Source: Streptomyces sp. CGMCC 4.7035
GTDB lineage: Bacteria > Actinomycetota > Actinomycetes > Streptomycetales > Streptomycetaceae
Direction: 5' to 3'
NCBI RefSeq assembly: GCF_031583065.1
Contig: NZ_CP134053.1
Location: forward strand, 6,551,001-6,615,000
Length of the DNA: 64,000 nucleotides
Below the pieces are notes generated by a model, which saw nothing but the letters and a program-made list of their open reading frames with translations, made no database searches and was not told the DNA's origin. Below, piece by piece: positions 13,297 through 16,149 of the stretch; positions within the stretch are counted from its first letter, which is position 1; each line of letters opens with the position of its first letter. Position numbers and translations under genes: made by a program.

Positions 13297-13616
13297 ACGG
13301 CGCATATCGAGTCGTGATCACCGGGTGGTCCTGGTGAGGTCTTTGACCCAGATCATCGAGGCGCGCAGGGGAGACCGGCGAGGTAGCTGCCGGGAGTCTT
13401 GTCGTATCGGGTGGCGATGCCTCGCCATGCCTTGAGCTTGTTGATCACGCGTTCGACGGTGTTCCGCTCCTTGTAGAGGTCGGCGTCGTGGCTGACGGGC
13501 CGGCCGCCTCTGGAGCCCTTCTTCTTCCGGTTGGCGGCCTGGTCCTTCTTCTCCGGGATGACCGCCTTGATACGACGTTTGCGCAGATGGGCGCGATTAC
13601 CGCGGGACGAGTACGC
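13297..13616 (-). pseudogene. IS5-family transposase, 3' part
   Basis: Minus-strand codons read AYSSRGNRAHLRKRRIKAVI, then KKDQ..., RPVSHDADLYKERNTVERVINKLKAWRGIATRYDK, including the final catalytic Glu region (ERNTVERVIN). Near 13365 one base is missing relative to the 8.8-kb copy, so the frame ends early (LPCAPR, stop) instead of ...IKDLTRTTR. The 5' part lies beyond the inserted IS110-family element. Confidence 0.8.
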
Positions 13617-13627
13617 CTAATGGGCAG

Positions 13628-14030
13628 TGAAGCGGGGCACCGCCAGGCCCACCCCGGCCCGTCGAGGCCCTGAAAGAGACTGCGGGCCCCGCTTCAGCAA
13701 GCGCGATACATCGTGGTGGTGATCGGTGCCGGGAAGCCGCAGAGTACGCCTGGGCCCTCGAGCCGTTGGACAAGCGCCGGCCCCGGCACCGTTCAGTACC
13801 ACGAGACCGGACGCAACTACCGCATCCAGCACGACGATCGGATCGTTGAAGTCCGTGGTCCGAGCCACCCGCGGGGATCACCTCTTACAAAGCCTGGAGC
13901 CGCCGAGCTCCTGAGCAGACCGAGGACCCCGCGGGTCGCTGGGGTCACGAACGGCTAATCGGATGCTGGGCCATCGAGCCCTTCCATTAGGGAGACGCGT
14001 GCCCCCGCACGGCTGCGACCAGCAGCAACA
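13628..14030 (+). ncRNA. Candidate bridge RNA (target loop and donor loop)
   Basis: Target loop: a perfect 10-bp stem (13724-13733 with 13782-13791) closes a loop holding GAGTACGCCT (13742-13751), identical to the left target flank plus core (13609-13618). It also holds GGACAAG (13768-13774), the reverse complement of the core plus right flank (15325-15331). Donor loop: stems GGTCGC/GCGACC (13934-13939, 14015-14020) and GGGGTCACG/CGTGCCCCC enclose ATCGGATGCT (13958-13967). This matches the element's right end (15316-15323) with one extra T. The same loop holds CCATTAG (13984-13990), the reverse complement of the left end CTAATGG (13617-13623). Both loops share the 16-base linker GGGCCnTCGAGCCnTT. 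Exact RNA ends are inferred. Confidence 0.8.
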
Positions 14031-14061
14031 CGCCCCTGACCGAGAGGACGAAAACGACACG

Positions 14062-15303
14062 ATGACCGTCACCTGCGGGATCGACTGGGCCAACGACCAT
14101 CACGACGTCGCCCTGGTCGACCACGAGGGAACCCTGTTAGCCCGGGCCCGGATCACCGACGACGCCGCGGGCCTGCAACAACTCCTGGGCCTTCTCACCA
14201 CGCACGGCGACAGCGAGGACGCCCCGATCCCGGTGGCGATCGAAACCTCCCGCGGCCTGCTCGTGGCCTGCCTTCGAGCCACCAAGCGTCCCATCTACGC
14301 GATCAACCCGATGGCAGCTGCTCGCTATCGCGACCGGCACGCGGTCGCCCGCAAGAAGTCCGACCACCTCGACGCTATGGTGCTGGCGAACATCCTGCGC
14401 ACCGACAGGGCCGCCCACCGACCGCTGCCCGACGACAGTGAACTCGCCCAGGCCATCGCCGTCCTGGCCCGCGCCCAGCAGGACGCCGTCTGGGACCGCA
14501 CTCAGGCTGGCAACAAACTCCGCTCCCACCTGCGCGAATACTTCCCAGGCTTCCTCGCGGCTTTCCAGCCCAGACGCGAAGGACTGTGCACGAAGGCAGC
14601 CCGCGTCGTACTGGCCGCCGCCCCCACCCCGGAACAGGCCGCCAAGCTCACCCGCACCCAGCTGTGCTCGCTCCTGAAGAAGGCCGGCCGCCAGCGCGGC
14701 ATCGAGGCGGAAGCCGAACGGCTCCGCCAGGCCCTGCGGGTCCCGCAGATGCGGCAGCTTCCGCAAGTCGAACAGGCCATGGGCCGCCAGGCGATCGCTT
14801 TGCTGAGACAGCTCGACGCCGCCTGCACCAGCGCAGACGATCTGACGGCTGCCGCGGTGGAGTCTTTTGAAGCACACCCGGACGCCGAGATCATCACCAG
14901 CTTTCCAGGGCTCGGGTCTCTCACCGGCGCCCGGGTGCTCGCCGAGATCGGCGACGACCGATCCCGCTTCTCCGACGCGAAGGGACTCAAAGCCTTCGCC
15001 GGGGCCGCGCCGGTCACCCGGGCGTCCGGCAGAAGCCTCGCGGTCATGGCCCGCCGGGTCAAGAACCAGCGCCTGGCCTCGGTCGGCTACGTCTGGGCCT
15101 TCGCCGCACTGACCGCCTCACCGGGCGCCCGCGCCCACTACGACCGCCGACGGGCCGACGGCGACCGCCACACCGCCGCCCAGCGCAACCTCTTCAACCG
15201 CATGCTCGGCTGCCTCCACCACTGCCTCACCAAACGAACCCGCTACGACGAAGCCACCGCATTCCCCGTTCCCCAAGCTCCTCAACTCTCCGTTGCCGCT
15301 TGA
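14062..15303 (+). CDS. IS110-family transposase (serine/DEDD recombinase)
   Basis: This 413-residue recombinase has an N-terminal RuvC-like DEDD domain: Asp8 (CGIDWAN), Glu61 (VAIETSRG), Asp101 and Asp104 (KKSDHLDAM). The C-terminal Transposase_20 domain at about residues 285-370 begins ITSFPGLGSLTGARVLAEIG. It contains the candidate catalytic Ser322 in TRASGRS and the VKNQRLASVGY block. In IS621 such a protein, guided by a bridge RNA, exchanges strands at a CT core. All recognisable motifs are present and the frame is intact, so it is probably active. The ATG follows a GAGAGGA site at slightly long spacing. The stop TGA overlaps the TTGACA box at the right end. Confidence 0.92.
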   Translation: MTVTCGIDWANDHHDVALVDHEGTLLARARITDDAAGLQQLLGLLTTHGDSEDAPIPVAIETSRGLLVACLRATKRPIYAINPMAAARYRDRHAVARKKSDHLDAMVLANILRTDRAAHRPLPDDSELAQAIAVLARAQQDAVWDRTQAGNKLRSHLREYFPGFLAAFQPRREGLCTKAARVVLAAAPTPEQAAKLTRTQLCSLLKKAGRQRGIEAEAERLRQALRVPQMRQLPQVEQAMGRQAIALLRQLDAACTSADDLTAAAVESFEAHPDAEIITSFPGLGSLTGARVLAEIGDDRSRFSDAKGLKAFAGAAPVTRASGRSLAVMARRVKNQRLASVGYVWAFAALTASPGARAHYDRRRADGDRHTAAQRNLFNRMLGCLHHCLTKRTRYDEATAFPVPQAPQLSVAA

Positions 15304-15324
15304 CAGATCAACCGCATCGGATGT
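15300..15324 (+). promoter_or_regulatory. Right half of a junction promoter formed on circularisation
   Basis: TTGACA at 15300-15305 is a perfect -35 box at the end of the transposase gene. If the right end is joined to the left end across the CT core, then 18 bases later the sequence reads TCTAAT (T15324, core CT, then AAT of the left end 13619-13621), a good -10 box. The promoter exists only in the excised circle and would drive the bridge RNA and the transposase. This matches the known behaviour of IS110-family circles. Confidence 0.75.
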
Positions 15325-16022
15325 CTTGTCCCCGGCGACCGCGTCCGGCCGGGTGCGGGGGCGGCCGACGGGCCCGCGCACCCGCACCTTCTTCAGGACG
15401 GGGATGAATTGCGGGCTGTCCGCCGCCTGGCCCACGGTCAGGATGAACGCCAGCGGGCGGCACGTGCGGTCGGCGGCGAGGTGGACCTTGCTGGTCTGCC
15501 CACCCCTGGAGCGTCCGAGGAGGGCGGCCTTCAGCCGGAGTTTCCGCCGACGCCGGATGCGTCTTCGTTCTTCCCGCGCGGGATCGCTTTCGGTCTCCTG
15601 TCCGCTTTGTTCTTCGAGGCCGCCCCCTTTGACCTGGCCTTCTCCTCCTCGGCGGCGGCTTTCTCCAGGGCGGTGATGACGTCCTCGTCGAGGTGCATCC
15701 CGGCCGCGTCGTGGTGGGTCCGGGCGGTGGTGGAGTCGATGCTGACCAGGGACAGGTCCACCTCACCGCGCTTCGCGGCTTCCGCGATCAGGCCCTCCAG
15801 CAGAGCCTCGAAGACGCCGGCGTCACGCCACTGCCGGAAGCGGTTATGGACGGTCGGCCAGGCCCCGAACTCCGCCGGCACCTCCCGCCACTGCCCGCCC
15901 GTCTTGAACCGCCAGATCACGCCCTCGAACTGCTGCCGCTCGGGGTACGGGCCGTACCCGCCGATCGGCAGGTACGGCTCGATGAACTCCCAATCCGGAT
16001 CGGTCAGTTGCACTCGCGTCAC
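15325..16022 (-). pseudogene. IS5-family transposase, 5' part (orfA and start of orfB)
   Basis: The first frame (GTG at 16022 to the stop at 15531) encodes RVQLTDPDWEFIEPYLPIGG, WREVPAEFGAWPTVHNRFRQW and VSIDSTTARTHHDAAG with the first catalytic Asp. A shift near 15540 gives the second frame, LKAALLGRSRGGQTSKVHLAADRTC..., up to RTRPDAVAGDK, where the IS110-family element cuts the gene. Two-frame organisation is normal in this group, but the insertion makes the gene non-functional. Confidence 0.82.
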
Positions 16023-16149
16023 GTAAGACCGTCTATCGGACCGGACCGTGCCACGAAGGCACATCCCGCAAATTGATCACGACTCGATACGCGCCCTAGG
16101 GCCTCCCGCTCCGACGCGACCGTAGGGCGGGGGCCGGCGTCGGCACGGC

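Follow-up and report, generated by a model that had tools for sequence, protein, structure and literature searches.

The bridge RNA of the IS110-family element IS621 has one target loop and one donor loop (Durrant et al., 2024, PMC11208160; Hiraizumi et al., 2024, PMC11208158). A long left non-coding end that holds this RNA is a feature of the IS110 group, and the only multi-loop arrangement mentioned in the sections of PMC11208160 considered here concerns the nucleotides of IS1111 RNAs that bind the donor. Structural work on IS621 places the target loop with one dimer of the recombinase and the donor loop with the second dimer. The relevant parts of that report (PMC11208158) include the authors' suggestion that the two loops may come from different RNA molecules, and the observation that separate target-loop and donor-loop molecules supported recombination in vitro. 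Further papers cited alongside these, likewise in excerpt, are PMC12859917, PMC13174815 and PMC13199778.

Other guide systems share some of these properties. The seekRNAs of IS1111 and IS110 elements operate with the same transposase family, an RNA-read choice of target and retargeting by changed guides (Siddiquee et al., 2024, PMC11187229); in the passages drawn on here, natural retargeting is described between the elements ISEc11 and ISXne4 and not as several targets within one RNA. TIGR-Tas tandem guide arrays combine a Nop-domain relative of IS110 with RNA arrays that carry several guide pairs, but these arrays guide DNA binding or cutting rather than transposition with a donor loop (PMC12045711). 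Split bridge RNAs (Pelea et al., as summarised in PMC13264000) have target and donor loops that work apart; they are engineered, whereas the loops described below are natural and stacked in one left end.

Here we describe an IS110-group element in a 64,000-nucleotide stretch of Streptomyces DNA, which we call the window. The genus name follows from genome G142, of the same genus as the window, in which a copy and its flanks are the same as in a record of Streptomyces sp. NWU339 (L008 and L037). The element resembles IS621, as presented in the parts of the two 2024 reports cited above, in that its left end specifies a bridge RNA whose target and donor loops each have a left and a right guide, and in its CT core and sequence-related DEDD recombinase. 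It differs from the single-target-loop RNA described in those parts by having two target loops (up to four are called in relatives) and a conserved pre-donor stem-loop. We consider it very probable, judging from sequence comparison, that the long left-end bridge RNA combines a single donor loop with two target loops, A and B, and that the target loops act as alternative addresses. The observations behind this reading are matches between loops and insertion sites, near-identical copies at sites that fit different loops, and conserved hairpins. Among the titles and abstract openings listed by searches of an open-licence library, none describes a bridge RNA with several target loops; preprint servers lay outside this search, and a report elsewhere is possible.

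Element boundaries, recombinase and interrupted gene

The element has the long left and short right non-coding ends of the IS110 group, with 443 bases between the left core and the open reading frame and 23 bases between the reading frame and the right end. Those 23 bases do not hold the right-end RNA by which the IS1111 group is recognised. Both boundaries are fixed by a second copy with identical ends at a different site (copy 2). CT is present at both ends of both copies and the joined sites read in frame, indicating insertion at a two-base core without a longer target duplication. The features of the locus are collected in Table 1.

The encoded protein matches PF01548 (7.4e-37) and PF02371 (2.4e-14), both above cut-off, and NF033542 ('IS110 family RNA-guided transposase'; 3.4e-51, above cut-off). 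With these three profiles it has the DEDD RuvC-like and Transposase_20 domains of the IS110 family. A distant sequence match to the IS621 transposase in the PDB was also found (6.7e-08). The match of the protein to NF052498 reached 33.9 bits against a cut-off of 100, and the recombinase does not qualify as a Tas protein of the TIGR-Tas systems at the NCBIfam cut-off.

The gene interrupted by the window copy can be read from its flanks. The left piece (13371-13616, minus strand) exceeds the cut-off of PF01609 and also matches the IS5 profile NF033580 (2.1e-17), and the right piece (15328-15762, minus strand) matches the adjoining stretch of NF033580 at 1.3e-12; both NF033580 scores lie below a cut-off that applies to the whole protein. 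The N-terminal part of the transposase likewise scored 1.2e-28 and 100.3 bits against the NF033580 cut-off of 110. When the flanks are joined, GDKAYSSR is read in frame across the site. An Rfam search of the window returned no family at gathering score.

Table 1. Features of the element and its insertion site, in window coordinates.
Feature	Position	Strand	Basis or remark
IS110-group element	13617..15326	+	CT core 13617-13618, CT again 15325-15326
Left half of used target, GAGTACGC plus CT core	13609..13618	+	Inside interrupted IS5-family transposase gene (minus strand)
Target loop A hairpin (additional target loop)	13628..13696	+	Fold z -3.7 (13628-13700); guides match copy 2 site
Left target guide A, GGCCCACC plus core-facing CC (site has CT)	13646..13655	+	8/8 non-core to copy 2 left flank
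Right target guide A, GAAAGAG (reverse complement of CTCTTTC)	13672..13678	+	7/7 to copy 2 right flank including core
Target loop B hairpin (loop 1 of the first-pass annotation; edges from fold)	13711..13804	+	Fold z -3.8 (13700-13815)
Left target guide B, GAGTACGC plus CT	13742..13751	+	10/10 to window left flank
Right target guide B, GGACAAG	13768..13774	+	7/7 to window right flank including core
Conserved pre-donor stem-loop C, target-loop-like shape (edges approximate)	13852..13953	+	Consensus fold
Left donor guide, ATCGGATG-CT	13958..13967	+	Matches right end ATCGGATG-T-CT
Right donor guide, CCATTAG	13984..13990	+	Reverse complement of left end CTAATGG at 13617-13623
DEDD recombinase, IS110 family RNA-guided transposase, 413 aa	14062..15303	+	PF01548, PF02371, NF033542
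Right half of used target, CT core plus TGTCC	15325..15331	+	Letters present
N-terminal part of interrupted IS5-family transposase, target gene of window copy	15534..16064	-	NF033580

Target and donor loops of the predicted left-end RNA

A first-pass annotation of this DNA had proposed that the left end contains two loops, here termed loop B (its loop 1) and the donor loop (its loop 2), with four guides and a target preserved on both sides. All of these letters are in place, and the assignment to the IS110 group, with a left-end bridge RNA and target-loop/donor-loop logic, was right. Specifically, the left guide of loop B at 13742-13751 is identical to the left flank at 13609-13618, and GGACAAG is the reverse complement of CTTGTCC, formed by the core at 15325-15326 and TGTCC. 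The two 16-base linkers are GGGCCCTCGAGCCGTT and GGGCCATCGAGCCCTT. The donor guide is situated 341 bases from the left core. By their letters the donor guides pair with both element ends as in a bridge RNA, although the predicted folds contain no open donor loop.

Immediately 5′ of loop B the first-pass annotation had missed a second target loop, so the guides number six rather than four. In loop A, the left strand GGCCCACC plus CC, the linker GGCCCGTCGAGGCCCT and the right strand GAAAGAG follow the same layout as loop B, and together they specify the target GGCCCACC-CT-CTTTC. The second copy of the element, in the same genome (8.09 Mb, one contig), is located at GAGGCCCACC-CT-CTTTCC. The core-facing second base of the left guide is C where this site has T. 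Loops A and B each pair both halves of a target at 13/13 non-core positions; a fit of at least 11/13 is reached by 0.06% to 0.15% of letter-shuffled targets.

A single base, at 13783, separates the two copies: the window copy has C there and copy 2 has T. Each copy fits one loop. The window site matches loop B at 13/13 non-core positions and loop A at only 5-6/13; the copy 2 site matches loop A at 13/13 and loop B at only 5-6/13. The single-target-loop architecture of IS621 is thus not what the window element presents, as it carries two loops that each fit the site of one copy. On this evidence, the element would specify a natural two-address bridge RNA, both of whose addresses are occupied in the same genome. 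The first-pass annotation had held that copies with an identical loop 1 in unrelated targets would reduce its matches to coincidence. Copy 2 is literally such a case; loop A explains it, and the interpretation survives in extended form.

Copy 2 interrupts an IS110-family transposase gene. Its flank pieces match PF01548 (7.1e-50) and PF02371 (1.8e-24), and when joined they leave a frame open over 408 codons. These flanks also bear on the proposal that the two target loops act jointly, joining two target sites in one complex for deletion, inversion or capture. The presence of two loops in one left end, and the action of the recombinase as two dimers (PMC11208158, in part), fit this proposal. In contrast, the flanks of each copy in this genome match a single loop, and joining them restores continuous frames as simple insertion predicts; furthermore, the same portions of PMC11208158 report that IS621 gave no target-target recombination in vitro. 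We regard joint action as very unlikely.

The base difference at 13783 lies in the closing stem of loop B, whose predicted fold is slightly weaker in copy 2 (-34 versus -37). Each of the two used targets lies in the transposase gene of another insertion sequence (IS5-type, GDKAYSS; IS110-type, EAHPLSKV). Among free sites in the same genome there is no exact match to the loop A or loop B pattern. With at most two mismatches, the loop B pattern occurs at 61 places (six with one mismatch) compared with 27 for the reversed-pattern control; the loop A pattern occurs at six places, all with three mismatches, compared with six for the control.

The RNA at 13618-14060 folds more strongly than its shuffles (z -4.5; 0 of 100 as good). 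The donor-loop stretch folds less strongly (13865-14013; z -1.6, 10 of 200 shuffles as good), and fully open donor guides are absent both from its minimum-energy fold and from a consensus fold, which pairs them with other stretches. The consensus, built from nine related left ends, gives separate hairpins for loop A, loop B and the pre-donor stem-loop. Eleven of its 127 pairs have changed on both sides with pairing kept: seven belong to the stem of B, each seen in at least one relative, one to the stem of A, one to the linker of B and two to the stem before the donor loop. The ten-pair run that had been described as closing loop B recurs in the fold; the stems of six and eight pairs assigned to the donor loop were not confirmed. 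Overall, the observation made in the first-pass annotation is confirmed and its interpretation is partly supported.

Stem-loop C was found by pattern in many relatives, with variable side strands. It was considered as a third target loop and rejected: the side strands matched their own targets at 9/13 or better in 2 of 53 cases, compared with 2.7% by shuffle. A shape that resembles a target loop and has no target match indicates that shape alone is no proof of use. The length of the predicted left-end RNA, about 400 bases, is explained by the second target loop, which the other copy uses, together with this conserved stem-loop before the donor loop.

Loop use among related elements

Relatives were gathered by protein and DNA similarity, elements with both ends were kept (loci lacking them were removed before counting), and the site of each element was scored against the loops of its own left end. 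Entry also required a donor loop with a right guide matching the left end and a left guide matching the right end; donor matches in this set are therefore built in by the rule and are not evidence. An earlier set held 65 entries from 128 loci (L001-L006 excluded by choice, the second copy entered as C2), an intermediate set held 77 entries and 65 distinct element-sites, and the final table holds 73 distinct element-sites. Plasmid searches (28 and 147 records) led to eight fetched matches and further added loci, and some further loci were inspected outside the counts. The many-copy distant subfamilies L185-L201, whose ends are unreliable or absent, were excluded. Related copies were counted where their sites or RNAs differ, and the sites are not all independent events.

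A loop finder that demanded contiguous stems missed known loops through bulges, and constrained folding was used instead; as its control, 54 RNAs were shuffled once each and yielded 0.07 loops per RNA at E<=-28. Loop 3 of L264 was missed as long as a C was required at the first core position, and this requirement was relaxed.

A loop was called for 67 of the 73 element-sites. The best own loop fits its site at 9/13 or better in 61 cases, at 10/13 or better in 56 and at 11/13 or better in 48, compared with 4.3%, 0.9% and 0.15%, respectively, for letter-shuffled targets (13,400 trials). Twelve element-sites fall below 9/13 (L011, L023, L024, L027, L045, L057, L065, L081, L093, L095, L219r and L252), and two of these, L011 and L045, have multi-loop RNAs in which no loop fits the element's own site.

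At least two loops were called for 38 element-sites, 36 of which have a best loop at 10/13 or better; in 33 of these 36 the second-best loop reaches 8 or fewer. In L013 and L061 the second loop also scores 10/13, and since the guides resemble each other the loop used is less certain. At 10/13 or better, the loop used in two-loop RNAs is the first in 17 cases and the second in 11; in three-loop RNAs each of loops 1, 2 and 3 accounts for two cases, and the four-loop RNA uses loops 1 and 4.

Target loops called from the predicted folds of relatives number one to four. At E<=-27, the counts for 67 RNAs are no loop in six, one in 28, two in 25, three in seven and four in one. The average at this loose cut is 1.56 loops per RNA (68 RNAs) versus 0.26 in dinucleotide shuffles, and with this background the weak second and third loops include false ones. 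Under the stricter cut of E<=-31, at least two strong loops remain in 25 of the 68 RNAs, and dinucleotide shuffles give 0.08 loops per RNA. A recombinase tree of 69 rows needs 21 changes of loop number, with L027, L057, L095 and L107 on or behind very long branches, of odd letter make-up and probably in wrong reading frames. The only use we make of this tree is the conclusion that loop number changes often.

Other genomes repeat the pattern of like copies at sites that fit different loops. In Streptomyces G058, L117 and L202 show zero differences over 1690 bases compared; L117 (13/13) and another element, L009, are at the loop A site, and L202 is at TTCACCCC-CT-TGACC, where loop 2 fits at 11/13 with the right guide at 7/7. 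Trebonia kvetii has two 1848-bp copies (L058 and L059) that differ by one base outside the RNA; of the four loops in this RNA, loop 1 fits one site (12/13) and loop 4 the other (13/13). Two diverged copies in Actinomadura kijaniata fit a loop at offset 39 (L088, 11/13) and one at offset 145 (L087, 12/13, although L087 had no called loop with an earlier, stricter finder). In a three-loop subfamily each loop has a user: L061 for loop 2 (12/13), L264 for loop 3 (13/13) and L301 for loop 1, the last judged from its left flank, as its right end was not found. The loop A hairpin is 88% identical to that of L061, and the coding parts are 73% identical.

Repeated use of the loop A site bears on another question. 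If the RNA were an ordinary single-target bridge RNA, copy 2 would be an off-target insertion, of a kind reported for IS621 (legend of Extended Data Fig. 7, PMC11208160), and its match to loop A a coincidence. This coincidence would have to produce 13/13 non-core matches in the correct register together with the loop geometry. Furthermore, eight relatives sit at the loop A site (L008, L009, L038, L116, L117, L245, L247 and L263r), and all of them carry loop A with a fit of 12-13/13. Chance is already contradicted by these repeated matches, and we find this account scarcely credible.

In a different account, one loop is active at a time, the extra loops are fossils of earlier targets, and gene conversion has homogenised an old copy, at target A, with a newer version that has loop B. 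Conversion between copies could indeed make them alike, and we counted this against alternative addresses. The guides of loop B differ among close relatives while loop A is constant, and elements at the loop A site can carry diverse loop B sequences, as fossils would allow. However, this account needs separate whole-element conversion events in at least three genomes. Unused fossils should also decay, whereas the loop A guides are invariant in nine of nine aligned RNAs, among them the RNAs of three elements at loop B sites, namely the window element, L104 and L013. We consider it unlikely, and favour alternative addresses within one RNA.

Several further arrangements were observed. The relatives L073, L076, L080 and L206r, among others, are at similar GTACGC/GTATGC-CT-TGTC sites with different loops. 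On the linear plasmid NZ_CP109328.1, L253, L258, L263 and L265 occupy mirrored positions, all four at the loop A site; these positions are consistent with long terminal inverted repeats. Six copies in Trebonia kvetii (L185-L190), with a recombinase 45% identical, have only a short site in common, about C-CT-AACCC.

Proposed alternative addresses and possible loop arrays

The reading that we favour can be stated as a mechanism. A single left-end transcript would carry loops A and B and the donor loop. The recombinase would hold the circular element through the donor loop and pair it with whichever target fits either target loop, presumably by free choice. One RNA could in this way license insertion at two unrelated conserved sites, in IS5-type and IS110-type transposase genes. 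As the target and donor loops of IS621 worked as separate molecules in vitro, one donor loop might be enough for any of several target loops, and the engineered split bridge RNAs point the same way.

If several target loops are used in one natural RNA, then target modules can be stacked. This would explain the spread of one element to unrelated sites and would provide a ready design for multi-target RNA-guided recombination. Such elements also offer a natural way to ask whether the target and donor loops need to be joined in one molecule, and a multi-loop RNA could be a step between single bridge RNAs and guide arrays. A broader proposal is that the IS110 elements of actinobacteria contain arrays of target loops that can evolve, in which modules are gained, lost and re-guided independently and the live addresses form a small list of destinations, comparable to the guides of a CRISPR or TIGR array. 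Such an array might be processed into individual target-loop RNAs with a common donor loop. We give this proposal an even chance of being correct.

The left end of L009 in Streptomyces G058 contains a tandem partial duplication (53 bp, at 1447-1552) that includes half of loop A. Duplications of this type are a possible route to new loops.
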